Shown: in pieces, positions 10,071 through 23,991 of the stretch
Numbering within the stretch: the first letter of the stretch is position 1
Layout of the letters: each line of letters begins with the position of its first letter
Translations under genes and position numbers: made by a program
NCBI GenBank assembly: GCA_017623505.1
Contig: JAGAOZ010000018.1
Coordinates: 1-64,000 of the forward strand
Direction: 5' to 3'
Length of the DNA stretch: 64,000 nt
Source of the DNA: Alistipes sp.
Lineage (GTDB): Bacteria; Bacteroidota; Bacteroidia; Bacteroidales; Rikenellaceae
The notes under the pieces: model-generated
Told to the model about the DNA's origin: nothing
Databases searched by the model: none
Seen by the model: only the letters and a program-made list of their open reading frames with translations

Positions 10071-10092
10071 TAGATTGATTGGTAGGGTTCTA

Positions 10093-10130
10093 AATAGAGT
10101 TCGCTTAACATAGTGAACTCTATTTTTTTT
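10093..10130 (+). terminator. Rho-independent terminator of the 9278-10070 operon
   Basis: AATAGAGTTC at 10093-10102 pairs with GAACTCTATT at 10115-10124, extended inward by one G-U and one G-C pair. A T run continues to 10130. It isolates the signalling island from upstream transcription. Confidence 0.88.
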
Positions 10131-10424: not shown

Positions 10425-11066
10425 ATGGGTCAAGAATTTAAGCAGTGTCCAAATGGTCACTTTTACCAGGGAGCGCAATGTCCTTATTGCCGTACAAATA
10501 CTCAGACTGAAAAGACAGTGTTCGGAAATAATGGTGGAACTATTCCGACTAATGGTGGAACTGTTCCAACAGAGACTAATAAGACTCAGATTATAGACAC
10601 CGTTCGTGACCCTCAGGGTTATGTTGGTCCAGAGGATAAGACCGTTGTTGCCGGTATGGAGGGACAAAGTAGGGGTCCGGTTAATAAGACTCAGTTCTTT
10701 GATGATACAGATATGGAGCCTACATCAGGTGCTCCGGGTGCAGGTGCAGGACCTCGTTACGAGCGTAAACTTGTAGGTTGGTTGGTTTCTTATACCCTCG
10801 ATCCGCTTGGCGTTGATTACAGACTCTATGAGGGTCGTAACATTATCGGTCGTGACGCTGATTGCAATATTACAGTTGCTGATGGTAGCGTGAGCGCTAA
10901 GCATGCTGTTTTGTTGTATCGTGGCAAGTTCTCTATTACTGACCAGCAGTCATCACATGGTACATTTGTGAATGGTGTTGATATTGAGCTTGAGCCTCAT
11001 TATCTGTCGGATGGTGATGAGATTAAGGTCGGTAAGACTATTTTCAAGTTCCGCTCAGCTTTGTAA
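10425..11066 (+). CDS. Zinc-ribbon FHA protein with repeated Lys-Thr motifs
   Basis: This 213-residue soluble protein has three parts. Residues 8-22 form a zinc ribbon with C8, H12, C19 and C22 (CPNGH and CPYC). Residues about 28-95 are low complexity with four related motifs, EKTVF (T31), NKTQI (T54), DKTVV (T73) and NKTQF (T89). Residues about 130-213 are an FHA domain, a phosphothreonine-binding fold, with GR at 142-143, SAKH at 157-160 and NG at 183-184. The usual SRxH is SAKH here. FHA domains read Thr phosphorylation by Hanks-type kinases, and two such kinases are encoded 6-9 kb downstream. The Thr motifs look like phospho-acceptor sites that could bind FHA partners; that is inference. 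No membrane span is seen. The next gene starts 12 bp on. Confidence 0.88.
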   Translation: MGQEFKQCPNGHFYQGAQCPYCRTNTQTEKTVFGNNGGTIPTNGGTVPTETNKTQIIDTVRDPQGYVGPEDKTVVAGMEGQSRGPVNKTQFFDDTDMEPTSGAPGAGAGPRYERKLVGWLVSYTLDPLGVDYRLYEGRNIIGRDADCNITVADGSVSAKHAVLLYRGKFSITDQQSSHGTFVNGVDIELEPHYLSDGDEIKVGKTIFKFRSAL

Positions 11067-11078
11067 TACCTTAAGCCT

Positions 11079-12650
11079 ATGATTAGGTTAGCAAAGATAT
11101 TGCTGGCAGGTATGTTGTTCATCCTGCCAGCAGGTGCTTTCGCACAAGATAACGGTAGCTATTTGAAGGATGTAAATGTCGATGAGTTTCCGGAGGTCTC
11201 TTTTGTATACCACTGTGACAATCCTGTGACATTGCTTGAAAGAGATTTTCTGAAATTGACAGAGAATGGCCTTCAGGTAGATTTTGACTATAAGAGTGCT
11301 AAGAGCGCAGTAGTGAAGGATAAACCGATGCATATCATTATCCTTTGGGAGAATATGCGTTATGCTGTCAATGTAAAGAGCGTTACCGATAATGGTCAGC
11401 CTCAGTTTGATTTTACCAAATGTACTCTCGATAAATTCTTTAGAAATGCCAATATAGGTACAGACAATTTTGCAATTTACAGCTTCAATAGACGTGGTAA
11501 TAGTGATAAAACATTAAGTTCGGTTGTTAATTTTACCAATAATGTTGGTCAATTGCAGAATGGTGTATCTTCACTGTTATTTGCAGATAAGGTAAGACAG
11601 GATAAAGGATTTGAGAATCGTACGGATTACTATACTGCTGTACGAGAGGCTGTCGAGATACTTCAGTTTATTGATGGTCCAAAGGCTGTGATTGTCTTTA
11701 CGGCCGGTTATCCTATGAATAATTCTGGCTCGGATTCAAGTGAGCAGGTGAAGAATTTGGCGCTGGCAAAGCATGTACCTATTTATAACGTACAATACTC
11801 TGTTAGAAATGGCGTTACAAGCTCTGTTGAAGGTTTTGCTAATGCATCTTATGGAGGCTCAAAGCAGTTCTCTGATAATTCAGCAGAAACAAATATTGAT
11901 AATGCTGTACAGTATCTGCTCGGAACTTACTCTCAGATGAAGGAGCGTTGGTATGGCTACGATTATGAGTTGAGCTATACCTCACAAACTGAGCGCGGTG
12001 ATGAGATGGTGGAGTTGGTGCTGAATGTCAGTGGCTCGCAATATAGGGCTAATATGACGCCTCCGGCATTCTCTATTATGTTGTGGGCTGAGGAGAACTT
12101 GGTGTTGGCTATCCTTTGCGGCGTAGGAGCATTGTTGGTTTTGGTGTTTATCATCTGGTTTATCGTTAAGATGTTGCGAGGATTGTCAAAGCGAAAGAGA
12201 GAGAATAGAGCTTTGGCGAGCAAGATGCATCGCGATAAGGAGGAGGCTGACAAGAGAATTGCAGAGTTGGAGGATGATAAGCGTAAGATTCTGGAGGCTG
12301 AAGAGCAACGCGTCAAAGATGCTGAGCAAGAGCGCATATTGAAGATTATGCATACCAAGAGCTTGCGTTGCAATTTGGTATGTCAGTATAATAATCAGCA
12401 TTTTAACTATCCTATCTCGAATAAGGTCGAGACGACGATTGGTCGTGAGGACGATAATGATGTGGTTATACCAAATATGACTGTATCGCGTCACCATGCA
12501 AAGATTGTCTTTACGGGAACTGAGTTCCAGGTTGTTGATTTGGGTAGTTCTAATAAGGTGATTGTCAATGGCGTGATTTGTAAGTCTAAGACACTCCGCA
12601 ATGGAGATATGATTGGCCTGGGAGAGGCTGTGATTACCTTCTATTGTTAG
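11079..12650 (+). CDS. Membrane receptor: vWA-like periplasmic domain, span, cytoplasmic FHA
   Basis: This 523-residue protein has a signal peptide (1-22, ending AFAQ). A periplasmic domain of about 30-335 has vWA-like features: an opening strand with ERDFLKLTENG, a first strand MHIIILWEN, and a later strand AVIVFTAGYP. A span lies at about 341-364, a charged coiled coil at about 366-422, and a C-terminal FHA domain at about 430-523 with GR at 455-456, SRHH at 470-473 and NG at 497-498. The metal-site DxSxS of true vWA domains is replaced (LWENM), so metal binding is doubtful. The topology is the reverse of its neighbours, whose FHA or catalytic domains are N-terminal, yet the FHA still ends up in the cytoplasm. 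It probably links an envelope signal to the kinase/phosphatase circuit. FHA is secure; vWA-like is moderate. Confidence 0.85.
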   Translation: MIRLAKILLAGMLFILPAGAFAQDNGSYLKDVNVDEFPEVSFVYHCDNPVTLLERDFLKLTENGLQVDFDYKSAKSAVVKDKPMHIIILWENMRYAVNVKSVTDNGQPQFDFTKCTLDKFFRNANIGTDNFAIYSFNRRGNSDKTLSSVVNFTNNVGQLQNGVSSLLFADKVRQDKGFENRTDYYTAVREAVEILQFIDGPKAVIVFTAGYPMNNSGSDSSEQVKNLALAKHVPIYNVQYSVRNGVTSSVEGFANASYGGSKQFSDNSAETNIDNAVQYLLGTYSQMKERWYGYDYELSYTSQTERGDEMVELVLNVSGSQYRANMTPPAFSIMLWAEENLVLAILCGVGALLVLVFIIWFIVKMLRGLSKRKRENRALASKMHRDKEEADKRIAELEDDKRKILEAEEQRVKDAEQERILKIMHTKSLRCNLVCQYNNQHFNYPISNKVETTIGREDDNDVVIPNMTVSRHHAKIVFTGTEFQVVDLGSSNKVIVNGVICKSKTLRNGDMIGLGEAVITFYC

Positions 12651-12667
12651 TAGATAATGTGGTCGGG

Positions 12668-12692
12668 GTTGCCTGACGTAGGGTTAGGCAAC
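12668..12692 (+). other. Hairpin after the vWA-FHA gene
   Basis: GTTGCCT (12668-12674) and AGGCAAC (12686-12692) form a perfect 7-bp stem with an 11-nt loop. The following sequence (TCAGACCTTTATAA) has no long U-tract. It may be a weak or partial terminator separating the first two island genes from the PP2C operon. Confidence 0.5.
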
Positions 12693-12761
12693 TCAGACCT
12701 TTATAAAAGCGAATTATAATCAAGAATCTATTATACCTATATTTATTATAGAGGAATAAGG

Positions 12762-12769
12762 TATTTTTG
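12762..12769 (+). promoter_or_regulatory. Bacteroidetes -7 box for the PP2C operon
   Basis: TATTTTTG matches TAnnTTTG and lies 98 bp upstream of the PP2C start. Transcription from it would include the hairpin at 12805-12841 in the 5' leader. Confidence 0.45.
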
Positions 12770-12804
12770 GGATATCAATAAGTATTTAAATACCGCTGTG
12801 AGAG

Positions 12805-12841
12805 CTATCTCGGTAGTGAGATTAGTCCGGTAGCGAGATAG
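12805..12841 (+). promoter_or_regulatory. Structured leader with internal direct repeat upstream of PP2C
   Basis: CTATCTCG (12805-12812) and CGAGATAG (12834-12841) form a perfect 8-bp stem. Within it an 11-bp direct repeat, CGGTAGTGAGA (12811-12821) and CGGTAGCGAGA (12828-12838), allows an alternative pairing of the left arm with either GAGA copy. This could be a regulatory leader or a repeated protein-binding site. No known riboswitch was recognised. Confidence 0.45.
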
Positions 12842-12867
12842 ATTAACAGCATAAAATATTGTAGAGT

Positions 12868-14412
12868 ATGGGTTTAACTACAATCTGTGAAAATAATTTT
12901 TACCACGAGGAGAATGTCGGAAATGTACGTAAGGCTCAAGAGGATAGCCACGATCATAAGTTTTTGACACCAAATGGAGATTTGTTTGTGGTATGTGACG
13001 GTATGGGTGGCCATGTCGGAGGTAAGAAGGCTTCATCTTTAGCTGTCTCTTGTATTATTGAGTATCTCAATCGAGAGGAGTATCTTGATATTCCGGCGGC
13101 TCTTGATGCTGCTTTGCAGTATGCAAATATGCAAATTCTGGGTTACGCACAGACAAATCCTGAGTTCCGAGGTATGGGTACAACAGCTTGTATTGTGTTG
13201 TTGCAAGGTGATAAAGCGTATATCGCACACGTTGGCGATAGCCGTATCTATCTCCACCTTGGTAAAGAAAAGCAGCTACACCGTGTGACTAAGGATGAGT
13301 CATTTGTGCAGAAATTGGTTGATATAGGAGAGATTACGGATGATGAAGCCGAAACTCATCCTAACAAGAATAGAATCTTAAATGCTCTGGGCATTAAGCC
13401 TAATATGATGACCAATTTCCAAGTTATTGAGCCAAAGAATGGCGATACCTTTATGATTTGCTCTGATGGTCTTAACGGTATGGTTAAAGATGCGGTCATA
13501 GAACAGTGTCTTAATAGCGACGATGTACCTCTTGAAACAAAAGGTAAGTCATTGATTAATATGGCTTTGCAGAATGGCGGATTGGATAATGTGACCGTTG
13601 AGTTGATACATATTGACAATAGCCCACATAAGAAGAGTATTTTTATAAGCTATAACCCACAGAGCCGTAAATCTAAGGGTGGCAAATCTCCAAAGGATAG
13701 TAAGAAAAAGAATTTGCTCATAACATGGCTTACGATTATATTGTCTGTTGTATTGTTGGCGCTTAGCGCATTTGCTGTGTATGTGTTTATAAATAACAGC
13801 GAGGAGGAAGTGGCAGTAAAAAAGACAGATGAACCTTCATATAAGAATTATGAAGAATATAAAGCAGCAGAGGAGGCGTATAAAGAACTAAATGATGAGA
13901 TTATTAAAAAAGTTAAAGAAGACCTAAAAGCTAATCAAGCAAATCTAGATGATCAAAAGAGTGGACATTTGAAAGAAGAATTTAATAAAAAGATAGACTC
14001 GCTTAATAATGTCCTTGCACGATATAATAAGCAGTCTGAAAACCTAAAGTCGTCAATGCATGATTTTGCAGAAGCGTATAAAGGGTTTAATAAGGCTGAT
14101 TCGGTTTTTTGCACACACTACCTAATCACTCAACAATCTGAGTGGGAAAAAGTGCGTAAGGATTACAAAAAAGTTTTTTGTAAAGAAGATGGTTACTATC
14201 GTGAGGTAGATGATAACTTTAAGGCTGATTTAGACTCTAATATAGATAGTATCATAGTTGATTTGATGGAATACATGGATGGAGACATTGAAATACCAGG
14301 AAAAGAGTTTAAAAATGAAATTATCAACGTTCAAGAGAAAGCTTATAACTTTGATCAAGAACGCAAAGAGTTAAAAAATAGAGTAGAAAGTGTAAACAAT
14401 TTAAAAAAATAG
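12868..14412 (+). CDS. Membrane-anchored PP2C-type protein phosphatase
   Basis: This is a Mn/Mg-dependent Ser/Thr phosphatase (PPM/PP2C family) that would reverse Hanks-kinase phosphorylation. Residues 1-250 are the catalytic domain with the metal-binding motifs CDGMGGH (43-49), GMGTTA (102-107), HVGDSR (121-126), SDGLNG (199-204) and DNVTV (240-244); all conserved Asp residues are present. A basic linker (about 265-281) leads to one span (282-308). The C-terminal 200 residues are a Lys/Glu/Asn-rich, largely helical extracytoplasmic region unlike typical PppA/Stp phosphatases. This tail is much more A-rich in DNA than the catalytic half. The gene is 3 bp from the next FHA gene, so translation is probably coupled. 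Confidence 0.93.
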   Translation: MGLTTICENNFYHEENVGNVRKAQEDSHDHKFLTPNGDLFVVCDGMGGHVGGKKASSLAVSCIIEYLNREEYLDIPAALDAALQYANMQILGYAQTNPEFRGMGTTACIVLLQGDKAYIAHVGDSRIYLHLGKEKQLHRVTKDESFVQKLVDIGEITDDEAETHPNKNRILNALGIKPNMMTNFQVIEPKNGDTFMICSDGLNGMVKDAVIEQCLNSDDVPLETKGKSLINMALQNGGLDNVTVELIHIDNSPHKKSIFISYNPQSRKSKGGKSPKDSKKKNLLITWLTIILSVVLLALSAFAVYVFINNSEEEVAVKKTDEPSYKNYEEYKAAEEAYKELNDEIIKKVKEDLKANQANLDDQKSGHLKEEFNKKIDSLNNVLARYNKQSENLKSSMHDFAEAYKGFNKADSVFCTHYLITQQSEWEKVRKDYKKVFCKEDGYYREVDDNFKADLDSNIDSIIVDLMEYMDGDIEIPGKEFKNEIINVQEKAYNFDQERKELKNRVESVNNLKK

Positions 14413-14415
14413 AAT

Positions 14416-15483
14416 ATGAAAGTTATTACAGTAGGTCGAGATATCTCAAATAATTATATAGTAGAGGATGCACAAGTATCACGCAATCATTTGCAGATTG
14501 TTGTTAGTGACGATAAGAAGATGCTCGTTGTTGATTTAGGCTCAGCGAATGGAACATTTGTTAATGGAGTAAGAATCAATGGCGAGACACAGTTGCGAGC
14601 TAATGATGAGGTGAGAGCTGCCGGGGTAAAGATTCCATGGCAGGATTTGGTGGGGCTTAAGCCAGTGAAAAAACCGGTAGCGCCCCAACAACCCCAGCAA
14701 CCTCAAAAGAAGAGTGGCGGGGCGTTGTTGTGGATAATTATTTGTGCTGTTATTGTGTTGGCGTCTGCGGCTCTTTGCTGGTGGATTGCAAGTAGTAAAA
14801 ACAGTGAGATAGAAGCTGCAAAAACTCAAGTGGAAACATTAGAAAATGACCTTAATAAAAGTAAAAATGAGTATAACGAATTGCAAAACAAATATGATGA
14901 ACTTAATAATAAACACGACGCATATGTTACAGCGGCAAATAAAACATTAGGTGGTAATGCTGAGAAAATAAATGGTTTGAATGAAGCAGCAGAAAAAGCA
15001 AAAGCTAATCAAGATGATTTAAAACAAAAGAATGAAGAGTTAAAGGCTAAAAATAATGAATTAAATGCTGCAATTAATAGATCAAATAATGACAATGCAA
15101 AAATAATTGCTAAGCAACAAAAGGATTTGAGTGAGAAAGTGACTCATATAAACCAACTTAAAGAAGATAGTACAAAACTTCAAAAAGACTTGGATGCTAA
15201 GAAAAAAAATATTAAGAATTTGCAAGATTCGTTAGGTCAAATACGCAAAATTGTAAAAAATAAAGAGTCGGATTGGAAATGGAAAAATAATCTAAGAGCA
15301 TATTTGGGTTTGAAAGAGGACAACGATTCGTCATCTATAAAGGATGATGAGAAGACTCAGCAGACCCAACCAGCAGAGCAGGAGGTTGCAACAGCGGAGC
15401 AGCCTCAAGAGACAGCTGCCAAAGCAGAGCCAGTAAAGGAGACTCCTGCTCCTCAAGCAGAGAAAGCAACAGAGGTAAAATAA
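14416..15483 (+). CDS. FHA domain - membrane span - extracytoplasmic coiled coil (paralogue 1)
   Basis: Residues 1-78 of this 355-residue protein form a compact FHA domain with GR (7-8), SRNH (22-25), NG (45-46) and NG (50-51). All phosphothreonine-binding residues are present. The domain ends in a PWQDLVGL signature. A Pro/Gln-rich linker (84-99) precedes one span (102-125). Then comes CWWIASSKNSEIE and about 190 residues of heptad-type coiled coil rich in Lys, Asn and Glu, ending in an acidic Gln/Pro/Ala tail. By the positive-inside rule the FHA is cytoplasmic and the coil periplasmic. It belongs to a tandem set with the next two genes. Confidence 0.9.
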   Translation: MKVITVGRDISNNYIVEDAQVSRNHLQIVVSDDKKMLVVDLGSANGTFVNGVRINGETQLRANDEVRAAGVKIPWQDLVGLKPVKKPVAPQQPQQPQKKSGGALLWIIICAVIVLASAALCWWIASSKNSEIEAAKTQVETLENDLNKSKNEYNELQNKYDELNNKHDAYVTAANKTLGGNAEKINGLNEAAEKAKANQDDLKQKNEELKAKNNELNAAINRSNNDNAKIIAKQQKDLSEKVTHINQLKEDSTKLQKDLDAKKKNIKNLQDSLGQIRKIVKNKESDWKWKNNLRAYLGLKEDNDSSSIKDDEKTQQTQPAEQEVATAEQPQETAAKAEPVKETPAPQAEKATEVK

Positions 15484-15501
15484 GCTAAAATTACTGACCC
15501 G

Positions 15502-15543
15502 ATGAGAGTTTACACCATAGGAAGAGATAGAACATGCGATTAT
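15502..15543 (+). repeat. 42-bp direct repeat, copy 1
   Basis: These 42 bases, the first 14 codons of FHA paralogue 2, recur without a mismatch at 16346-16387. The flanking DNA has diverged well beyond this, so the identity is more recent than the rest of the duplication or is maintained. Confidence 0.95.
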
Positions 15544-16293
15544 GTTGTGGATGATGCGAAGGTATCGCGTACTCATCTGCAAATAGTGGTTGATGATAAT
15601 GGGGTTGTGTCGGTTGTTGATTTGAACTCCAGAAATGGTACGTACGTCAATGGAGCACCGATAAGTGGCGTGACTCGATTGAATATAAAAGACGAGTTGA
15701 GAGCATTTGAGGTGAAAATTCCTTGGCAAGAGATAATTGGGCTGAAACAGGATGATGGCTCAGGCTCTAAGACACAGCCAAAGAATAGTGGCAAAGGAAA
15801 CCTCGTTTGGCTTATTATGTATGCCGTAGTTTTGATTGTATCAGTCGCTGTTTGCTGGTGGATTGCTAGTAACAAGAATAGCGAAATAGAGCAGGTTAAG
15901 CAACAATCAGCCGTAGCGCAGAAAACTTTGGAAGAAAAGAATAAGGAATTAGAGGAGCAGATAGAAAACCTCGAGGCTGAATGTGGTAATCTTAGTGACC
16001 AACTTCAAGAGCTAGCAGCTAGTAAAGATAAGGAGATAGATAATCTGGTTAAGGTTAGAAAGAATCTTCAGGCCGATATTAAAGAGTTGGAAGGTGAGAA
16101 GGATGCATTGGTAATAGAGAAGTCAATGTTGGAAGGTGAGAATGAAGTATTGGAGGAAGACAAGGCCGAGTTGCAGGAGAAGGTGGACTCGTTAAATGTG
16201 GCAAATGCAAAACCGGACTCTACAACAAAACTTACTGTAACGAACCGGCGTACGTGTACAATAATAATCGGAGATAGAGAAAACAAAGAGTAA
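15502..16293 (+). CDS. FHA domain - membrane span - coiled coil (paralogue 2)
   Basis: This 263-residue paralogue of the preceding gene has FHA motifs GR (7-8), SRTH (22-25), NG (45-46) and NG (50-51), then PWQEIIGL, a span (about 100-122), CWWIASNKNSEIE and a coiled coil of about 115 residues. The FHA and span sections are clearly homologous to paralogue 1, while the coil is shorter and divergent. The first 42 nt of the coding sequence are identical to those of paralogue 3 (16346-16387), pointing to a recent duplication or gene conversion. The DDAKVSRTHLQIVVDD segment suggests a functional phosphothreonine pocket. It starts 18 bp after the previous stop. Confidence 0.9.
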   Translation: MRVYTIGRDRTCDYVVDDAKVSRTHLQIVVDDNGVVSVVDLNSRNGTYVNGAPISGVTRLNIKDELRAFEVKIPWQEIIGLKQDDGSGSKTQPKNSGKGNLVWLIMYAVVLIVSVAVCWWIASNKNSEIEQVKQQSAVAQKTLEEKNKELEEQIENLEAECGNLSDQLQELAASKDKEIDNLVKVRKNLQADIKELEGEKDALVIEKSMLEGENEVLEEDKAELQEKVDSLNVANAKPDSTTKLTVTNRRTCTIIIGDRENKE

Positions 16294-16345
16294 TAAGAAA
16301 AATATTCGAACAGATTAATATTGTTGGCAATAAATAATAGAGTTT

Positions 16346-16387
16346 ATGAGAGTTTACACCATAGGAAGAGATAGAACATGCGATTAT
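16346..16387 (+). repeat. 42-bp direct repeat, copy 2
   Basis: Identical to 15502-15543. It covers the start codon and the GR-containing first strand of the FHA fold, and identity ends abruptly after codon 14. Confidence 0.95.
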
Positions 16388-16993
16388 CAGATTGATGATT
16401 GTATTGTCGGTGTCTTTCATCTGCAGATTGTGGTTCGAGATGATAGAAGAATCTCTGTGGTGGACTTCGGGTCGCATATAGGTACTTCACTTAATGGTCG
16501 TCGAGTGGTTGGCGAGGTGATGCTTCGACCTCGTGACGAGTTGCGTATCGGAGATATTGTTGTGCCGTGGCAGAGAATTGTCGGGTTGTCGGGCGGTGTC
16601 GCGGATAGATATAAACCAGTGGCGAAGCCTCAAAATAGGACGGCACCTTGGGTGTGGGGCGTGATAGGATGCTTAGCATTTTTAACACTCTGTTTTGCGG
16701 CAGGAATGATATGGCTATACGTGGAGAATACTGATAAAACGGCAGCGATAGAGATGCAGCAACGAGAAATCACAGAGCTTAAGCGAGGGCTGGAAGTGAA
16801 TAAAAACACCGTACAGGAGTTGCGACAAACGGTTTCGGTACTACACGAGGAGCGGCAATCTTTAGACACTTTGGTTGATTTCTATTATGCCGAAAACAAT
16901 AATTTGAGAGAGAAACTTAAGGCGACACAAGTGGAACTGGAGGCTGAACAAAACAGAGTACATCTTGATTACGATATAAATTATCGTTATTAA
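16346..16993 (+). CDS. Degenerate FHA-like domain - span - coiled coil (paralogue 3)
   Basis: This 215-residue protein has the same layout as the two preceding genes: FHA-like domain (1-78), PWQRIVGL, span at about 103-125, then a coiled coil of about 85 residues. The phosphothreonine-binding residues are lost: SRxH is VFH-type (VGVFH at 21-25, so Ser22 is Gly and Arg23 is Val) and the conserved Asn45 is Ile (GSHIGTSLNG). The scaffold strands remain (LQIVVRDD, ISVVDFG, LNGRRV). It is probably a pseudo-FHA that binds constitutively or without phosphate. The reading frame is intact, so it is not a pseudogene. The first 42 nt equal those of paralogue 2. Confidence 0.85.
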   Translation: MRVYTIGRDRTCDYQIDDCIVGVFHLQIVVRDDRRISVVDFGSHIGTSLNGRRVVGEVMLRPRDELRIGDIVVPWQRIVGLSGGVADRYKPVAKPQNRTAPWVWGVIGCLAFLTLCFAAGMIWLYVENTDKTAAIEMQQREITELKRGLEVNKNTVQELRQTVSVLHEERQSLDTLVDFYYAENNNLREKLKATQVELEAEQNRVHLDYDINYRY

Positions 16994-17017
16994 GCTAAAA
17001 ATGATATAAGAACAGAT

Positions 17018-17878
17018 ATGAATAAACAGGCTTTACCCGTAATTCCGAACTACCATGTTGGCCATTTGGTGGCAGAGGGTGGAACGGCACGTGTCTACTG
17101 GGGTGTGGACCTCAGAAGCGGTTTTCCTGTGGCTATAAAGGAACTGAAACAGAGGTTCTTTGCAAATGAATTTGTTAGAAACAACTTTAGGAATGTTGAG
17201 ACGCAGCTCTATTTGATGTTGGAGCATCGCAACATACCACGATTGGTGGATTTTATAGATATTGTAGAGCGCAATCAATGGTATATTGTAATGCCTTTTA
17301 TCGAGGGCGATAGCTTGGAGCATTTTATTTACAATAAAATGACTCTGGTGCCGGAGCATATCGCGCTGCCGATATTTGTAGAGATATTGGATACTGTGGC
17401 GTATATACATCAGAAGGGAATCCTACATCTGGATATTAAGTCGAATAATGTGATTCTGACACCTAAACGTGAGGTGAGATTAATTGATTTGGGTATTGCG
17501 TCACGAATGAGTGACATGGGTAGCAGTACAACAGGTTATGGAACACCGTCGTATATGCCGCCGGAGCAGTTTGAGAAAAAAGCTTGCGGTCGTTATACGG
17601 ATATTTTTGCGTTGGGAGTGATGCTGTTTGAAATGCTGACCGGTCGTGTGCCGTTTATCGCTAATTCGACAGACCGAAATGAGTCTATAAGAGAACTGCG
17701 ACGCCAGATTAAAGAAGATCCAACACCACAAATGGCTCAGTTCTATCCGTTTATCGGAGAGGAATTGCAGAGAATAGTGGAAAAAGCATTACAAAAGGAG
17801 CCTCGTTATAGGTATCAGACTTGCGAGGAGTTTCTAAAGGATGTTAAGGCATACATGAAAAGACACAATATTAAGTAA
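17018..17878 (+). CDS. Soluble Hanks-type Ser/Thr protein kinase (non-RD)
   Basis: This is a bare kinase domain of 286 residues with no membrane span. Motifs are a modified glycine loop AEGGTARVYWG (19-29), VAIKEL with the ATP-binding Lys41, a catalytic loop HLDIKSNN (H137, D139, K141, N144), DLG in place of DFG (D157), an activation segment TTGYGTPSYMPPEQ with PPE instead of APE, and FALGVMLFEMLTGRVPF in the C-lobe. All catalytic residues are present, so activity is likely. The HRD arginine is Leu, which makes it a non-RD kinase and suggests it may not need activation-loop phosphorylation. It overlaps the next kinase gene by one base (TAATG), so the two are translationally coupled. Likely substrates are the FHA proteins around it (inference). 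Confidence 0.95.
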   Translation: MNKQALPVIPNYHVGHLVAEGGTARVYWGVDLRSGFPVAIKELKQRFFANEFVRNNFRNVETQLYLMLEHRNIPRLVDFIDIVERNQWYIVMPFIEGDSLEHFIYNKMTLVPEHIALPIFVEILDTVAYIHQKGILHLDIKSNNVILTPKREVRLIDLGIASRMSDMGSSTTGYGTPSYMPPEQFEKKACGRYTDIFALGVMLFEMLTGRVPFIANSTDRNESIRELRRQIKEDPTPQMAQFYPFIGEELQRIVEKALQKEPRYRYQTCEEFLKDVKAYMKRHNIK

Positions 17879-19680
17879 TGGGACAAACAGAGGAACAAAA
17901 TACAATTATTAACCACAACTATTTGCTGGAGAAAACAACACTTTCGTCAGGTAAATATGTGATTCTCTCTCGTCTTGGAGAGGGCGGTTTTGGTATTACG
18001 TATAAGGCGATGCAGGTTGGCCTTAATAAGATTGTATGTATCAAGGAGTATTTCTTGGCTGGTCGTTGTGTGCGTCGCGCGGGAACACCTTTCGTGGAGA
18101 TTCAGGGTGACAATACCGCTACATATATGAAATACCAAGAGGCCTTTGTTAAAGAGGCCCGAATGCTTTCGGATTTTCATCATCCTAATATTGTAAATGT
18201 GACTGACGTGTTTAGCGAGAACAACACGTCGTACATGGTTATGGACTTTATTGAGGGTATGAGTTTGCAGAAAATTGTCGATGATAATGGTCCTCTGTCT
18301 TATCCTCAAGCTGTAAACTATATGGCCCAGATAGCTTCGGCAGTGGGTTATGTTCATCAGCGTCATGTGTTACATAGGGATATTAAGCCTGATAATATTA
18401 TGATTACAGCGGACCATAAGGCTATTTTGATTGACTTTGGTTCAGCTCGTGAGTTCGAACATGATAAGACTCAGGCTCATACTTCGATGATTACCCATGG
18501 CTATGCTCCTACTGAGCAATATACTACGAAGAGCCGCAAGGGTTCGTATACCGATATTTATGCCATAGGTGCTACGCTCTATTTTGTTTTGACCGGTCAG
18601 GTGCCTATGGAGTCGGCGGCTCGTCTTACTGAGAAGATGACAGAGCCGAGAGTTCTTAATCATTCAATTCCACCCGAAGCAAATCGTACAATCTTGAAGG
18701 CTATGCAGATTAAGGCCGAGAACCGTCATCAAACTATTGACGAGTTTATGGATGATTTGCGCAATGTCAGACCATCGAAGCTTGTCGATGAAAATATTGG
18801 TGGAGGAAGTCGTGGTAAGGCTTGGATACTTGCTGTTGTCGGAATAGCTGTTGTCCTTGTCGGAGGTTTGCTCGCTTATCTGTTTATGGGCTTTGGAAGT
18901 AATTCTCAAGATATTTTAGAGCCGGGTGCGCCAGATGTTGAGATTTACAACTTTAGTGGTGAATACAATTATCCTATGATCTATGTTGAAGGTGGTAATT
19001 TCGTTATGGGTAGTGATGACGCTGACTCAGATGATAATCCAAAGCATAGTGTTACTATCTCCGATTTTTATATAGGGCAGATGGAGGTTTCTCGTGGCCT
19101 GTATAAGCGGATTATGGGCAAAGACTCAGATCCGTCGGGTTCTGAGCCGGAAATGACTATCAACGGGGAGGTGGCTACGGATGCTTATTATGATAGATTG
19201 CCGGTGGAGAATATTTCGTATGATGATGCCAAGAGGTTTATCGCAAAACTCAATAAGAAAACCGGCGCAGACTTTATGTTGCCTACTGAGGCGCAATGGG
19301 AATATGCAGCCCGTGGTGGTAAATACTCTAAGGGAACTCGATATGCCGGCTCAATGGATGTGGGGGGTATATGGTATAATCAAAATGATACGGCACCGGT
19401 GGATTATGATGGCAATAAGAATGAGTTAGGTATCTATAACATGAGTGGAAATGTTGCTGAATGGTGTGCTGACTATTATGATGAAAATTATTATAATGAA
19501 TCTGCCCGAATGGTGGATCCGTGTAATTATAAAGAATCAGATGCTGTGAATTCTGTGGTATTCCGCGGTGGCGGATATGATACAGCTGATGTGGCAGAAT
19601 TAGCCACTACATATAGAGATTTCGAATATCAAAACGATTGTACTCCAAGTATTGGTATTAGATTGGTAATCAAAAAATAA
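17878..19680 (+). CDS. Transmembrane Ser/Thr kinase with extracytoplasmic FGE/SUMF1-like domain
   Basis: This is a 600-residue fusion. Residues about 25-295 are a canonical Hanks kinase: GEGGFGITYKA (34-44), Lys56, HRDIKPDN (166-173), DFGSAR (186-191), an APE-equivalent GYAPTEQY and DIYAIGATLYFVLTGQ. A linker and one span (about 315-337) follow. Residues about 366-600 are a formylglycine-generating-enzyme/sulfatase-modifying-factor fold: IYVEGGNFVMGS, ISDFYIGQMEVSRGLYK, LPTEAQWEYAARGG, GNVAEWCADYYD and FRGGGYD. Most such domains outside true FGE are non-catalytic binding modules with a C-type-lectin-like fold. With the kinase inside, this domain faces the periplasm and probably senses a ligand. 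The kinase domain is of the RD type, unlike its partner. Ligand unknown. Confidence 0.95.
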   Translation: MGQTEEQNTIINHNYLLEKTTLSSGKYVILSRLGEGGFGITYKAMQVGLNKIVCIKEYFLAGRCVRRAGTPFVEIQGDNTATYMKYQEAFVKEARMLSDFHHPNIVNVTDVFSENNTSYMVMDFIEGMSLQKIVDDNGPLSYPQAVNYMAQIASAVGYVHQRHVLHRDIKPDNIMITADHKAILIDFGSAREFEHDKTQAHTSMITHGYAPTEQYTTKSRKGSYTDIYAIGATLYFVLTGQVPMESAARLTEKMTEPRVLNHSIPPEANRTILKAMQIKAENRHQTIDEFMDDLRNVRPSKLVDENIGGGSRGKAWILAVVGIAVVLVGGLLAYLFMGFGSNSQDILEPGAPDVEIYNFSGEYNYPMIYVEGGNFVMGSDDADSDDNPKHSVTISDFYIGQMEVSRGLYKRIMGKDSDPSGSEPEMTINGEVATDAYYDRLPVENISYDDAKRFIAKLNKKTGADFMLPTEAQWEYAARGGKYSKGTRYAGSMDVGGIWYNQNDTAPVDYDGNKNELGIYNMSGNVAEWCADYYDENYYNESARMVDPCNYKESDAVNSVVFRGGGYDTADVAELATTYRDFEYQNDCTPSIGIRLVIKK

Positions 19681-19721
19681 AAAAATACTATAATTAATTT
19701 ACTAACCAATTAAAACACAAG

Positions 19722-21116
19722 ATGATGAAAAAGTTATTTTTAGCTCTCGCTTTTGCTGTCGGAGTATCGTTTGCAGCAAATGCACAAGTGTCGGATGATG
19801 TTAAAGGTGTGGTAAAGCCTGAAGCGCAGAAACAGCAAGAGCAGCTTTATGTAAAGGTGCGTGAGGCTTTGAATGGCAATGTTAAGGGTAATAAGTCTGC
19901 TCTTAATGCTATTGCCGAAGATCCTCAGTTCTTGTTTGAGGCTGCGAAAGTAGAGGTTGAGTTGGGCTCTAAGGCTCTTAAGCCTGTGTTTGTTGCGCTC
20001 TCTAAGACTGGTTCAAATAAGTTTATTTTTGAGCCTATTAATGCAGCAACATCTGATGTTAAGAATAAAATGGCTAAGGATGGAGTCAAGGTAATTAAAA
20101 ATGTATATGTAATCAGCACCGTAGCGGAGCTTAGAACAATCACTGGTGATAATAAGAGTGATGCTCGTTATAGTGTTAAACTTACTTGGGAGGTAACAGC
20201 TCCTTTGAAGAATAATAAGGAGGCTTCAGTAAATGGTGAGCTCGTTAAGACTCCTAAGGTGACAAAGGTGAAGCTTATCGCTTCGGAGGCTCAGGCTGTG
20301 CCTTATTTGCAGAGTGAGGTTGCTCGAATGACAGCAATAGCAAAGGAGAAGGTGCGCCAATGGTTCAGAGAGCCAAAGGTAATCTCTGGTAAGGAGCTCG
20401 GTCTGGATAAGGAGGTTGTTGGTGCATTTGCAGTAGTTGGTGAGATTCACTCAGGTAAGACTATTCGTAATGATAAGGTCTTTAGCATGAACGAGTCATC
20501 TCACATTACTCTTCCATTGAATCCAAATCAGTTTATTGATTCATCAAAGGCATATCAATATGTTAATCCTGAGGCATCGGTAGAGGTTGCTCCTAAGTTT
20601 ACTGTTGAAGTAAATGCAGATATGACAAAGGCTGAGATTACTAAGGTGGAGTATCAGATTATAGCTGTTAGCGAGCCAAAGACACATGAAGAGATTGTAA
20701 ATGCTGTTCGTAATTCTAAGGCTTTTGCTGAGGAGTATGTGGCTAAGGTGGCTGAGTATGCTGTATCTCGTGATAAGGCTGCTAAGGAGGAGATTTTGGC
20801 TATGTTTGAGAATCCAGAGAGCGGTATCGATGTTACCTTCCGTTACAAGAATGGTAAGGAGCGTATGAATAAGGCTATCCCTGCGAAGAAGTATCTCTCT
20901 CGTATCAAAGGTTTGGAGATGGACGCAAAGGTTGAGTTCAATGGCGTACAGGAGAATAACTGGAATACTATCGTGTTGGATATGTGTCAGAAGTTCCGCA
21001 GCAAGACATACGGCGATACTATGCAGAAGCGTATCTACATCAAGAAAGTTGATGGCGCATATAAGATTGCAAAGATTGAGGCCGTAGAGGAGAGTACCAA
21101 GCGTTTGGAGGAGTAA
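19722..21116 (+). CDS. Secreted or periplasmic protein of unknown function in the FHA island
   Basis: This 464-residue protein has a clean signal peptide (residues 1-22, MMKK start, ending AANAQ), so it should reach the periplasm. The mature part is rich in Lys, Val and Glu, without further membrane spans and with one late Cys. It alternates helical stretches (SEVARMTAIAKEKVRQWF) with beta-rich ones. The last 110 residues (helix, then YKNGKERMN, AKVEFNGVQENNW, YIKKVDGAYKIAKIEAV) look like an NTF2-type cone but this is a weak call. No family is recognised. Its position, 41 bp after the FGE-kinase and before two FHA genes on the same strand, suggests it may be an extracytoplasmic partner of the kinase or phosphatase ectodomains. 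Confidence 0.8.
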   Translation: MMKKLFLALAFAVGVSFAANAQVSDDVKGVVKPEAQKQQEQLYVKVREALNGNVKGNKSALNAIAEDPQFLFEAAKVEVELGSKALKPVFVALSKTGSNKFIFEPINAATSDVKNKMAKDGVKVIKNVYVISTVAELRTITGDNKSDARYSVKLTWEVTAPLKNNKEASVNGELVKTPKVTKVKLIASEAQAVPYLQSEVARMTAIAKEKVRQWFREPKVISGKELGLDKEVVGAFAVVGEIHSGKTIRNDKVFSMNESSHITLPLNPNQFIDSSKAYQYVNPEASVEVAPKFTVEVNADMTKAEITKVEYQIIAVSEPKTHEEIVNAVRNSKAFAEEYVAKVAEYAVSRDKAAKEEILAMFENPESGIDVTFRYKNGKERMNKAIPAKKYLSRIKGLEMDAKVEFNGVQENNWNTIVLDMCQKFRSKTYGDTMQKRIYIKKVDGAYKIAKIEAVEESTKRLEE

Positions 21117-21181
21117 AAAGTGAGTGAGAAGAGTTGCCAACTTCGTATATGTGATTGGTAGCTCCTAAAAGAGGTAGATAT

Positions 21182-21433
21182 ATGAAAATTATAAAGATTG
21201 GTAGAGATACTAGTAACGACGTAGTTATTTCGCATGATCCAATGGTGTCGCATGCCCATTGTCAGATTATTGAGAACTATGGCGAATATACATTGTTGGA
21301 TTGTAATTCGTTGAATGGTACATACGTAAATGGAATGAAGATGCGTCGTAATGGTGAAATTCGTATTAAGCAGAGTGATATTATCCGTATAGGTAATACA
21401 ACTTTGCCATGGATACAGTATTTTATGAGATAA
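21182..21433 (+). CDS. Stand-alone FHA domain protein
   Basis: This 83-residue protein consists of a single FHA domain: GR (7-8), SHAH (SRxH with Arg replaced by His), NSLNGTYVNG and a closing LPWIQYF. The ATG at 21182 is chosen because the FHA begins at once (MKIIKIGRD), as in its paralogue, and GAGG lies 9 bp upstream; a TTG at 21155 would add nine residues with no support. It is the smallest FHA protein of the island and lacks a span. It may act as a soluble adaptor or a competitor for phosphothreonine sites. Its closest relative here is the N-terminus of the next protein. Confidence 0.85.
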   Translation: MKIIKIGRDTSNDVVISHDPMVSHAHCQIIENYGEYTLLDCNSLNGTYVNGMKMRRNGEIRIKQSDIIRIGNTTLPWIQYFMR

Positions 21434-21456
21434 CCTAACTTTAAACTATTTATATT

Positions 21457-22044
21457 ATGAAAATTGTAAAAATCGGTCGTTCTTCTTCGAATGATGTGGT
21501 AATTCAGGACAACCAAGTGTCACGTGCACACTGTCAGATAATTGAGGATTATGGTCAGTTCACTATTATTGACACTAATTCTACAAATGGCGTATTTATT
21601 AACGGAATGCGTATGCGTACTAATGGCCAGCAACCACTTCGGTCTACCGATATTGTCCGTATCGGTAATACTACGTTAAACTGGACTCAGTACTTCCCTC
21701 CAATTGGTAATGGTACAGGAACAGGAACAGGAACAGGAGCAGGACCCGTACCCGTACCACCAAGACCTGAACCTGGTTTCTCAGTATTGAGTTTAGTGTC
21801 ATTTATTATCAGTATGGTGGGTGTCTTAATGCTAACCGTTCCACCGTTATGGTTCTTCTGGTGGTGGTGGATTGTTGTCGGCTTGGTATTCCTTGCGTCT
21901 TTAATTTTGGCATCAATAGGGGCCTCAAGTGATGGTAGAGGAACAGGTTTTGCTATTGCCGCAGATATTGTATCCGGTATAGGTGTAGTAGGTGCTATTG
22001 TTATGATAATAGTATTATTATCTAATGGTATTTATGGTTTATAA
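21457..22044 (+). CDS. FHA domain fused to a multi-span membrane module
   Basis: Residues 1-85 of this 195-residue protein form an intact FHA domain (GR 7-8, SRAH 22-25, NSTNGVFINGM, closing LNWTQYF). A Gly-Thr repeat linker follows (about 86-97, encoded by a 6-bp tandem repeat), then a Pro-rich stretch PVPVPPRPEP. The C-terminal 90 residues carry three hydrophobic spans with LASIGASSDGRGTGFAIAADIVSGIGVV, resembling the DUF4190-like protein at 9798-10070. It is the last gene of the island, followed after 19 bp by a strong terminator. It probably tethers an FHA reader to the inner membrane. Confidence 0.88.
   Translation: MKIVKIGRSSSNDVVIQDNQVSRAHCQIIEDYGQFTIIDTNSTNGVFINGMRMRTNGQQPLRSTDIVRIGNTTLNWTQYFPPIGNGTGTGTGTGAGPVPVPPRPEPGFSVLSLVSFIISMVGVLMLTVPPLWFFWWWWIVVGLVFLASLILASIGASSDGRGTGFAIAADIVSGIGVVGAIVMIIVLLSNGIYGL
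21712..21744 (+). repeat. Hexanucleotide tandem repeat encoding a Gly-Thr linker
   Basis: Five to six imperfect copies of GGAACA encode alternating Gly and Thr residues between the FHA domain and the membrane module. Copy number could change by slippage without breaking the frame, altering linker length in steps of two residues. Confidence 0.8.
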
Positions 22045-22063: not shown

Positions 22064-22098
22064 AAAACCCTGCAACACATCGTATGTTGCAGGGTTTT
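22064..22098. terminator. Bidirectional terminator between FHA island and terminase gene
   Basis: A perfect 14-bp stem (AAAACCCTGCAACA / TGTTGCAGGGTTTT) with a 7-nt loop lies between two convergent genes. T runs are present on both strands, so it can serve both the island (plus) and the terminase (minus). Confidence 0.92.
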
Positions 22099-22119: not shown

Positions 22120-23559
22120 TTAGTGGAAGCTGATGGTCGAGATTTTGGGGCGATCGACGAAGAAGCCCTCTTTCTCGATGATGCCACTTAGGACGTCGGC
22201 GGCGTCGTGCCAGCGGTTTGAGCGAAACTCCCGTCGGTAGGTCGTCAGATGTGCATATAGCTCCGGCCAACGTTGAGCCCAATATCGTGGAAAACGGATG
22301 GAGTGGATGACCGTAGCCGAGTTGGAGAGGATGCGAGCCTCCTTATTGCCGCTTTGATGAAACCACTCGACGTGCACCTTCGGCGCAAGGTGTTGTACGG
22401 CACGGGCAAAGCCGCGTCCTCCATTGTTGCTCTCGATAAGTGCGGAGCGTGTTGCTGAGCCTTTCAGCATCTCGGCGACTAAACTCTCAGTAACCTCCAT
22501 TGGCTCGCGGGAGTAGACAACGTCGGTGATGTAGATTACGCCGTCAGCATCCACAGCATAGCTCATCGAACATAGGTAATCGTCGCCCATATCGGCGGTG
22601 TCGGTGTAGTTCGAGCGGCGCACTATATCTGTCGGAATATCATCATACTCGTTGAAACTATCGCCATAGAGTAGACCTCCGCGCGATGATGGGTGTCCCT
22701 GATACATACACTCAAACTGAACAGAGTCAAGCTGTCGTTTCATCTTCAACAGCTCCGCACTCTGTCGTTCGGGCCACAATGCCTCGCCCTCAATACGAGG
22801 GTCAATCTCTGTGGGTGGACCACTCTTTAGGGCTTCGAAATTCAAGCATAGCCAGTCGTTGGGTCCTAAGTTGTCAATATCCTTCCACGCCTTGAACTCC
22901 ACACAACGCTCCTTCTCACGCAACGAGCCTATCAAGTCCTCCTCGTGCCAGCGGGTGAATACTATCAGCTCGCTGGAGTTGTTGTGCATACGCGTTTTGA
23001 CAACTGAGGTATACCACTCCCAGCAGTTCTCGCGGATAAGAGGAGAATTAGCCTCCATTGCATCTTTATATAGGTCGTCCAAAATGAAGCAATCTACGCG
23101 GTTGCCCGTCAGTGAGCCCTCCCTGCCAACAGACAGCAATCCGCCGTCGTGGTCTATAATCTCCACCTCGTCCGAGGTTCTGAGGTACTGTGGCGGTTTG
23201 CCTCCGCATTTTATGCGTGTGTCAGCAAATATGTCACCATACTCGCGACTCTCTATTATGCGTTGTACGCGTCGATTGAACTTGTTGGCAAGCGAAGCCG
23301 AATATGATGCTATGGCAATCTTCATATCGGGATTGAGCCCTAACATATATGCCGGCAGTAGGGTGCTGGCTCCGACACTTTTGCCGTGCTGTGGTGGCAT
23401 AGAGACCATGAGCTTGCGAATCTTGCCACGTGCAAATTGCTCCAGCAGACGATAGTATACTTTGTGAAACTCCTGTATCTCCAGAAATGGATATAATTTC
23501 CGGGCAAATTGCGCGAAATGGGGAAAATGTTTTCTTTGAGTTGTTTTTTCGTCTTTCAT
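22120..23559 (-). CDS. Orphan phage-type terminase large subunit (TerL-like)
   Basis: This 479-residue protein looks full length. The N-terminal packaging ATPase has a Walker A variant PPQHGKS (55-61), a Walker B ILDD (159-162), and VFTRWHEEDLIG near the coupling motif. The C-terminal half resembles the RNase H-like nuclease (YAVDADGVIYITDVVY, ALIESNNGGRGFAR, HDAADVLSG), with the expected acidic residues. TerL cuts and pumps phage DNA into capsids together with a portal and small terminase. None of these partners, nor any capsid, tail, integrase or lysis gene, is in this window. It follows a 95-residue gene by 4 bp and lies divergent from an S24-type repressor. It is either a prophage remnant kept intact or a domesticated nuclease/ATPase. 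GC content appears higher than in the adjacent FHA genes. Confidence 0.9.
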   Translation of the reverse strand: MKDEKTTQRKHFPHFAQFARKLYPFLEIQEFHKVYYRLLEQFARGKIRKLMVSMPPQHGKSVGASTLLPAYMLGLNPDMKIAIASYSASLANKFNRRVQRIIESREYGDIFADTRIKCGGKPPQYLRTSDEVEIIDHDGGLLSVGREGSLTGNRVDCFILDDLYKDAMEANSPLIRENCWEWYTSVVKTRMHNNSSELIVFTRWHEEDLIGSLREKERCVEFKAWKDIDNLGPNDWLCLNFEALKSGPPTEIDPRIEGEALWPERQSAELLKMKRQLDSVQFECMYQGHPSSRGGLLYGDSFNEYDDIPTDIVRRSNYTDTADMGDDYLCSMSYAVDADGVIYITDVVYSREPMEVTESLVAEMLKGSATRSALIESNNGGRGFARAVQHLAPKVHVEWFHQSGNKEARILSNSATVIHSIRFPRYWAQRWPELYAHLTTYRREFRSNRWHDAADVLSGIIEKEGFFVDRPKISTISFH

Positions 23560-23563
23560 CGTT

Positions 23564-23851
23564 TTAGATATATTGTCTAAGTTCGTTAAATGAGAATGTG
23601 TTGAGAACCTCCTCGCCTTCGGAGGTGTAGGTGTGGAATTCCCACCATACGGGGATTATGTCACTGATGGCTGTGATTTTTCCCTCCGGGTAGACGGATG
23701 TTTGTCGATAGATTACCGCTGAAAGGTGCAGGCGGCAAAGCATCTCGTCGTGTTCAAATTCAATAACATCAGAGATGTAACCCTGGTCACCGATGCGGTC
23801 TATTACTAAGCATATGGTTATTCTGTAAAGTTCATCTGATATGTCATACAT
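23564..23851 (-). CDS. Small protein of unknown function upstream of the terminase
   Basis: This 95-residue protein is acidic, with no signal or span, and appears mixed alpha/beta (YRITICLVIDRIGDQGYISDV, LHLSAVIYRQTSVYPEG, PVWWEFHTYTSEGEE, FSFNELRQYI). No family is recognised. It is the first gene of a two-gene unit with the terminase (4-bp gap) and is read from the region shared with the repressor. By position it could be a small terminase or an accessory protein, but its sequence does not show a DNA-binding fold. Confidence 0.7.
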   Translation of the reverse strand: MYDISDELYRITICLVIDRIGDQGYISDVIEFEHDEMLCRLHLSAVIYRQTSVYPEGKITAISDIIPVWWEFHTYTSEGEEVLNTFSFNELRQYI

Positions 23852-23881
23852 AGTTCATAGTGTAAAATAATTAATAAATAA

Positions 23882-23913
23882 TTTGTTACTTTGAAATAAA
23901 ACCCTTAACTTTG
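23882..23913 (+). promoter_or_regulatory. Promoter of the S24-type repressor gene
   Basis: TTTG at 23882-23885 and TAACTTTG at 23906-23913 are separated by 20 bp, an excellent match to the Bacteroidetes TTTG-N19/20-TAnnTTTG promoter. The start of transcription should fall near 23920, next to the palindrome at 23927. Confidence 0.65.
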
Positions 23914-23918
23914 TTGTG

Positions 23919-23926
23919 CAAATATA
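23919..23926 (-). promoter_or_regulatory. -7 box for the 95-residue gene/terminase unit
   Basis: Read on the minus strand this is TATATTTG, matching TAnnTTTG, about 68 bp upstream of the ATG at 23851. The palindrome at 23927-23941 falls between this box and the expected -33 position. Confidence 0.45.
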
Positions 23927-23941
23927 GTTCAAGAAATGAAC
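23927..23941. promoter_or_regulatory. Candidate operator GTTCA-N5-TGAAC
   Basis: GTTCAAGAAATGAAC is a perfect inverted repeat of 5-bp half-sites with a 5-bp spacer. It lies just after the repressor promoter and inside the spacer of the divergent minus-strand promoter. One bound dimer could therefore block both. The form resembles LexA/CI-type operators, which often contain GTTC...GAAC. Single GTTCA half-sites also occur at 23830 and 23853. Confidence 0.6.
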
Positions 23942-23991
23942 ATTTGCAATAATTTGTGTTAAAATATTGTATAAAATTTATTGATATTGCT

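Follow-up and report, generated by a model that had tools for sequence, protein, structure and literature searches.

In the genome of Alistipes sp. GCA_017623505.1, eleven consecutive genes encode two protein kinases, one PP2C phosphatase, seven FHA domains, an exported vWA-like protein and one secreted protein, which raises the question of what such a set serves. The genes, here named A to K, lie on the + strand at 10425-22044 of the window, by which the whole analysed stretch of 64,000 nt is meant (contig JAGAOZ010000018.1, positions 1-64,000, forward strand). An original prediction made from this DNA had described ten same-strand genes of a phospho-threonine circuit spanning the inner membrane; strand and positions were right, while the list of open reading frames (ORFs) gives eleven genes. 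The most informative part, which that prediction did not mention, is the KT motifs and the Zn ribbon of A. The KT (Lys-Thr) repeat in the linker of A is specific for threonine and is not enriched in the partner proteins, on which grounds A may be read as a multi-phosphothreonine hub. An even chance is given to the interpretation that the island would be a self-contained inner-membrane phospho-threonine signalling module built around this hub. The genes are as follows.

A, 10425..11066, + strand: Zn ribbon C8..C22, four KTx(hydrophobic) motifs with Thr 31, 54, 73 and 89, FHA domain 140-203, no span
B, 11079..12650, + strand: signal peptide, vWA-like domain, span at about 351-369, cytosolic linker, FHA domain 452-515
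C, 12868..14412, + strand: PP2C domain at about 16-247, one span 290-308, periplasmic tail
D, 14416..15483, + strand: FHA domain, one span 103-121, tail with coiled-coil-type matches
E, 15502..16293, + strand: paralogue of D with FHA domain, one span 101-119 and coiled-coil-type matches in the tail
F, 16346..16993, + strand: FHA-like domain with binding residues lost, one span 106-124, coiled-coil-type matches in the tail
G, 17018..17878, + strand: Hanks-type kinase without convincing span, nearest solved kinase PknB
H, 17878..19680, + strand: Hanks-type kinase 27-300, span 317-335, periplasmic FGE-sulfatase-type domain 367-597, nearest solved kinase PpkA
I, 19722..21116, + strand: secreted protein with C-terminal NTF2-like domain
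J, 21155..21433, + strand: lone FHA domain, TTG start, ATG at 21182
K, 21457..22044, + strand: FHA domain and three membrane spans

A repeated threonine motif in the linker of A

The linker of A is the variable part between the Zn ribbon and a conserved 'KLVGWLVS' stretch and has a median length of 90 residues. Its repeat follows the consensus [DN][KR]T-x-[IV]-[FG]. The motif KTx[VILFYM] was counted 143 times in 66 linkers of A and its relatives, compared to 6.8 times in composition-preserving shuffles (largest value 15 of 1000 shuffles). The Arg-Thr version was likewise enriched (39 vs 3.2), while the serine version stayed at 3 vs 5.2. A set of 62 linkers contained 136 KT, 38 Arg-Thr and 2 serine motifs. 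At 174 [KR]T sites, the preceding residue was most often D or N, and the threonine was followed by Q, V or E, then I or V, F or G, and G or D. The enrichment persisted when each 50%-identity cluster was represented by a single linker (14 linkers; 37 KT motifs vs 1.7, largest shuffle 7 of 2000). None of 20,000 shuffles of the window's own linker got to its four motifs, and two or more were present in 35 of 53 representatives of A.

Outside their folded domains, the partner proteins contained KT motifs at about the shuffled level, namely 28 vs 27.7 in PP2C proteins, 18 vs 16.1 in kinases, 6 vs 4.3 in vWA-FHA proteins and 43 vs 39.2 in other FHA proteins. Unlabelled neighbours gave 335 vs 302, in a set with some loci present twice. 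FHA domains recognise phosphothreonine and not phosphoserine. A repeat that occurs in a threonine version only, beside many FHA domains, thus has the look expected of a phospho-hub.

Domains and topology of the island proteins

Ten island proteins (without J) were compared to Pfam. FHA was assigned to A, B, D, E, F and K, Pkinase to G and H, an FGE-sulfatase domain to H and PP2C to C, and no family above cut-off was obtained for I. The seventh FHA domain, in the small ORF J, was picked up by a genome-wide FHA search. Together with hydropathy, these results bear out the predicted inventory of two kinases, one PP2C, seven FHA or FHA-like domains and a secreted protein. All seven FHA domains found in the 2.0-Mb genome (93.7% complete) sit in the island, and its C is the sole PP2C found in the genome. 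That seven FHA domains and the only PP2C found are gathered within 11.6 kb, in a combination that recurs elsewhere, is more than chance. Four kinases of the genome passed the cut-off, two in the island and a tandem pair on another contig (C29, L084:8101-11585). In this second pair, one kinase has an FGE domain and neither FHA nor PP2C is nearby; the pair adjoins an apolipoprotein N-acyltransferase-like gene.

According to hydropathy, B and I have signal peptides. B, C, D, E, F and H each have one span, next to which B shows a weaker segment, and K has three. A and J are without a span, and the weak segment of G falls within its kinase domain. These spans fit the circuit across the inner membrane that had been proposed. 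The motifs that we take to be diagnostic of kinases, PP2C and FHA domains were used to judge activity: the catalytic ones are present in G, H and C, and six of the seven FHA domains retain the GR and S..H residues. D was assessed by eye because the script pattern missed it. The exception is F, whose FHA-like domain has lost the usual binding residues (VGVFH, SHIGT).

The predicted vWA-like receptor B had no match to Pfam VWA at E 0.1, scored 8e-8 with TIGR03436, which is yet below the cut-off, and does not retain the metal ion-dependent adhesion site (MIDAS) motif, as we take it to be defined. By profile alignment it matches, however, a Paraburkholderia protein in which VWA and FHA are clearly recognised by Pfam. 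In TerY-P triads, a cytosolic TerY vWA protein goes with a kinase and a PP2C; unlike TerY, B is exported by hydropathy.

The predicted structure of I (mean pLDDT, i.e. predicted local distance difference test, of 65) is reliable mainly in the C-terminal part. Whole-chain matches had TM-scores of 0.27 or less, and the NTF2-like domain alone is usable. This modelled fold suggests ligand or wall binding and no more. The FGE end of H was also considered as the target of a diversity-generating retroelement, which was rejected because that stretch is not repeated in the window; a reverse transcriptase was not searched for.

Conservation of the module

In BLAST searches against fetched relatives, the order A-B-PP2C-kinase-FHA-kinase was found in three genomes (G307, G046 and G293), and A-B-PP2C-kinase-FHA on a shorter contig of a fourth (G350). 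A profile of A detected full-length relatives (E ≤ 1e-80) in 7 of 393 genomes of the order, and in 27 of 393 when weaker matches down to 1e-12 were included. Within the genus, full-length A is limited to its own genome (1 of 180), and eight further genomes have weaker matches that exclude the Zn ribbon. Relatives in a scan of named genomes were mostly from Bacteroidota, with some from Ignavibacteria.

For synteny, 80 of 94 A relatives were used, with A as the sole bait. The A ORF was present in all 80 loci, several of which are contigs shared with the genomes of the preceding searches. Counts refer to the 52 loci in which the sequence continues for 8 kb or more downstream of A, and to home-made profiles, with which misses are possible. 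B (≤6 kb downstream of A, same strand) was found in 38 loci, and PP2C, kinase and another FHA protein (≤10 kb either side, same strand) in 43, 38 and 38, respectively. B, PP2C and kinase occurred together in 33 of 52. A named cultured strain in which A is accompanied by all three is Rhodocytophaga aerolata KACC 12507 (L167). Conserved synteny had been proposed as a check by the original prediction, with missing co-occurrence, or a secretion machine beside the set in all relatives, as the outcomes that would speak against it. The genes do co-occur, and no machine lies next door in all relatives. As a whole, the earlier reading is partly supported.

The window's arrangement of a kinase-FGE gene with I right behind it was shared by 4 of 80 loci (L128, L131, L135 and L137), in which a homologue takes the place of I. 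These homologues emerged from profiles built within the fetched loci. As a search handle itself, I gave a match in 1 of 180 genus genomes and none in genome-contig or phage collections.

Of the families formed by unlabelled neighbours, the largest recur in 9 and 7 loci, with LEA_2 and alpha/beta-hydrolase proteins among them. As no other family recurs widely, the constant part consists of A, B, PP2C, kinase and FHA, while the periplasmic domains vary. The Pfam scan of neighbours covered 119 of 164 candidate proteins, and the families listed are 25 of 70; M48 peptidases made up 7 of the 119 same-strand neighbours scanned. LEA_2 recurs within flavobacterial-type versions of the module (L151, L155, L161, L164, L181 and similar). 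A link of the LEA_2 and M48 neighbours to envelope stress is possible. In one Bacteroidales family, the module opens with a three-FHA protein (L071:2702-5566). Such a protein is fused to an ABC transporter in L070:6130-9042 and resembles mycobacterial Rv1747, as far as the available part of the source describes it.

Proposed mechanism

We infer from the above that the cytosolic kinase G and the membrane kinase H would phosphorylate A on the KT repeats of its flexible linker. Readers of the phosphothreonines would then be the FHA domains of J, of A itself and of four membrane proteins (B, D, E and K). A would in this way act as a multivalent hub on which the vWA receptor B, the enzymes and the coiled-coil proteins come together as a single complex, and the PP2C C would remove the marks from A. 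The periplasmic parts, i.e. the vWA and FGE domains, the tails of C to F and protein I, may set the balance between kinases and phosphatase in response to a stimulus.

Several observations weigh against this mechanism. Phosphorylation of the motifs and their binding by FHA domains rest on sequence, and the peptide specificity of the FHA domains is a prediction. The pattern [DNSEG][KR]Tx[VIL] is about twofold enriched in kinases outside their domains (10 vs 5.1, largest shuffle 13; 14 vs 6.0, largest 12, in a kinase set with some loci present twice). Loci with more FHA domains did not have more KT motifs (rho 0.08, n=42). Neither B nor PP2C nor a kinase accompanies A in 5 of the 52 loci (L152, L153, L154, L177 and L183), and no output gene was found to recur constantly next to the module. 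Finally, the linker of the Paraburkholderia relative of A described below is without the KT motif.

A bolder version of the hub is possible, though doubtful. A would be a scaffold built by phosphorylation, which polymerises or condenses under the membrane by means of its tandem phosphothreonines and its own FHA domain and recruits FHA-bearing transmembrane proteins. This would be a reversible clustering of receptors and an undescribed class of signalling, which would extend to Ignavibacteria and, in a form lacking the KT motif, to a betaproteobacterium. The animal adaptor TIFA has an FHA domain and a phospho-Thr site on one chain and assembles between molecules. A is alike in the first respect, but its context is unrelated and its motifs are multiple.

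The closest system in layout is archaeal ArnA (Zn finger-FHA) with ArnB (vWA). In the part available of the study on Sulfolobus acidocaldarius, the kinases phosphorylate ArnB, with sites in the C-terminal helix bundle of this vWA protein, and a phosphorylation-dependent association of the two proteins is proposed (PMC6509490). Similarly, A has CxNGH..CPYC and an FHA domain and is followed by the vWA-like B. In contrast to the phosphorylation of the vWA partner reported there (PMC6509490, as far as available), the repeated Thr motif here lies in the Zn-FHA protein. Moreover, B is exported and has a span and a C-terminal FHA domain, and a PP2C and membrane FHA proteins are encoded alongside A and B. 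The KT motif is not enriched in B. A kinase linked to a PP2C and a vWA protein is also described for the actinobacterial neighbours of GAP1-N2 conflict systems (PMC7159879). In these, the kinase often bears the zinc ribbon and the vWA protein stands alone, and the part of that source available to us has no repeated-Thr Zn-FHA hub.

Alternative explanations

A could be an intramolecular switch, in which the phosphorylated linker folds onto its own FHA domain and blocks partner binding, while the membrane proteins merely set the kinase balance. GarA and OdhI, which have a disordered Thr region preceding the FHA domain, are among the solved matches to A, and A has their layout of a flexible N-terminal Thr region followed by FHA. 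Their single short Thr motif, however, differs from the two or more KT motifs of 35 of 53 A representatives, and A scored only 29.5 with the NCBIfam OdhI equivalog model, which requires 200. A also differs from GarA and OdhI by its Zn ribbon, by repeating its motif several times and by the many FHA proteins that would be its partners. The six further FHA domains encoded alongside it would be superfluous for a purely internal switch, and this explanation is considered unlikely.

Control of cell-wall growth is considered quite unlikely. The actinobacterial PknB/PstP/FhaA/FhaB set consists of kinases, a PP2C and FHA proteins, hence of parts like those of the island. The nearest solved relatives point the same way for G (PknB) and for A (TB39.8, which we take to be FhaA), and C can be regarded as Stp1/PstP-like with 234.7 bits against a cut-off of 230 for NF033484 (Stp1/IreP family). 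The kinases, in contrast, reached 199.8 and 188.6 bits with the PASTA-kinase model NF033483 (cut-off 450), and no PASTA domain was found by Pfam in G or H. Wall-synthesis families near A amounted to one Transgly match among the families listed (25 of 70; 119 neighbours). Neither the PASTA architecture nor linked wall genes as in the actinobacterial set were seen, and the exported vWA-FHA protein is a further difference. The patchy distribution of the module (full-length A in 7 of 393 genomes of the order and 1 of 180 of the genus) also speaks against it.

A function in defence or as toxin-antitoxin system, in the manner of KKP (kinase-kinase-phosphatase) modules, is very unlikely. With KKP, the island shares two kinases, one PP2C and signs of horizontal spread, as far as the available part of PMC11341870 allows the comparison. 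According to the same part, KKP is recognised by a PfkA-type kinase with a cold-shock domain and a PfkB-type kinase with FHA (PMC11341870), and neither domain was found in G or H by Pfam. A further hallmark of KKP would be toxicity of the kinase pair that the phosphatase relieves. The window has no cold-shock-domain kinase and no kinase-FHA fusion; its readers are separate and mostly membrane proteins. PADLOC returned kinase-domain models, weak PP2C matches and coiled-coil-type matches, while A, B, I and K matched nothing. Patchy distribution and low GC content at third codon positions (GC3), which suggest transfer, and the adjoining terminase-like and S24 repressor genes would suit KKP, but two relatives carry these neighbouring genes without the island, and no relative of A was confirmed in viral contigs, nor any of I in phage records.

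Secretion machinery and the Paraburkholderia relative

The absence of a secretion machine had been claimed for the island. In the own genome, an incomplete assembly, neither TssC (PF17541, marker of the type VI secretion system (T6SS) of subtype iii) nor Pvc16_N, the marker of extracellular contractile injection systems (eCIS), was found. Among 48 distinct A-positive genomes, likewise incomplete, TssC was detected in four (five rows, G421 and G611 being one genome), always on a contig other than that of A. Pvc16_N was as rare with A as without it (1 of 48 A-positive genomes, 1 of 30 A-negative ones). With TIGR03354 (TagH/VI_FHA type), the ten proteins scanned, i.e. all except J, stayed at or below 51.6 bits (cut-off 120.25).

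The claim does not hold universally. A megaplasmid of Paraburkholderia caribensis (L227:5423-17405) encodes a vWA-FHA protein, a Zn-FHA protein, kinases and a PP2C, the last identified by a tblastn match only. These genes are divergent from those of a contractile injection system, namely phage-sheath and Pvc16_N. In profile comparisons, the vWA-FHA protein corresponds to B over the vWA and FHA parts with a probability of 98.9, and the FHA half of the Zn-FHA protein to A with 99.7. These links support B as a vWA protein and the module as old and widely shared.

In the genus of the window (Alistipes), a different type of kinase/PP2C/FHA island contains a TssR-like protein with vWA and TssR domains (L080, L083, L222, L223 and L226), in some cases with export or surface-protein genes close by. 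TssC was not found in the two genomes with such islands that were tested (G006 and G021), and TssR may act outside the T6SS.

The T6SS has a threonine phosphorylation pathway with a PP2C partner. It comprises the kinase PpkA and the phosphothreonine reader Fha, as described in the accessible part of PMC3953482. The island likewise has a kinase, H, with PpkA as its nearest solved relative, and FHA readers; it differs by seven FHA domains, the repeated-Thr Zn-FHA protein and a genome in which no TssC was found. A role as a regulator detached from its contractile injection system, be it T6SS or eCIS, is highly improbable for the island. The PpkA-like H, the Paraburkholderia cluster and the TssR-like proteins of other islands speak for it, but TssC was not found in the own genome and in 44 of 48 A-positive genomes, nor Pvc16_N in the own genome and in 47 of 48 (present in 1 of 30 controls). 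For this genome the idea is thereby contradicted, short of a machine hidden by gaps in the assembly. KKP and the T6SS pathway share parts with the island but differ from it in defining features.

Transcription and origin of the island

The spacing between genes is tight throughout the island, with the exception of 217 bp between B and C. The one-base overlap of the kinases (base 17878 ends G and starts H) and the 3-bp gap between the phosphatase and the first FHA paralogue (14412/14416) were located as predicted. E and F share their first 42 bases exactly (15502-15543 and 16346-16387), while the remainder has diverged. This may stem from recent gene conversion or from selection acting on the start of the genes. 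Two hairpins flank the island.

10092..10125, + strand: terminator-like hairpin upstream of the island, one of 10 such sites in the region, with 6.8 expected
22064..22098, no strand assigned: strong hairpin with T-rich 3' arm right after K, -21.3 kcal/mol, z -6.0, missed by the terminator scan

The downstream hairpin is likely the end of a transcription unit. With hairpins on both flanks, of which only this one is strong, one or two transcription units are plausible. A Bacteroidales-type promoter pattern, taken by us as the consensus, matched three times in the window (1.4 expected) and nowhere usefully for the island, and a sigma-70-type scan gave matches at chance level, so that no promoter stood out.

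GC3 of the island genes lies between 0.31 and 0.45, compared to at least 0.47 for 20 of 24 other window genes examined. In the genus relatives L214 and L217, a distance of 4-5 kb separates the upstream antiporter from the downstream terminase/repressor genes. Three or four unrelated genes take the place of the island, and the terminase/repressor genes are inverted. The antiporter flank fetched from L213 and L215 is also without the island; the stretch of L216 stops too early to judge. Low GC3 and island-free relatives make it likely that the island was gained by transfer into a variable locus. No mobile carrier was found. Among plasmids, A occurred in just one Paraburkholderia and one Tsukamurella record. 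The PP2C had no match covering 80% in phages or plasmids; among the matches listed, the catalytic part was covered. Next to the island, at 22120-24666, a terminase-large-subunit-like gene stands isolated, accompanied by a small gene and one for an S24-type repressor. The two relatives with the inverted arrangement have retained the terminase and the repressor at 74-86%.

Significance

Signalling by kinases, PP2C and FHA proteins is already known, and the KT-repeat Zn-FHA protein with its module is the new part. In the literature covered (titles and openings of abstracts, subscription papers for the most part excepted), no such Bacteroidota cluster and no KT-repeat Zn-FHA protein was found. The linker predicts exactly which threonines would be written and which domains would read them, which makes an anonymous gene set directly testable. 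If true, the hub would be a bacterial parallel to the multi-site phospho-scaffolds of eukaryotes and would open up serine/threonine signalling in Bacteroidota.

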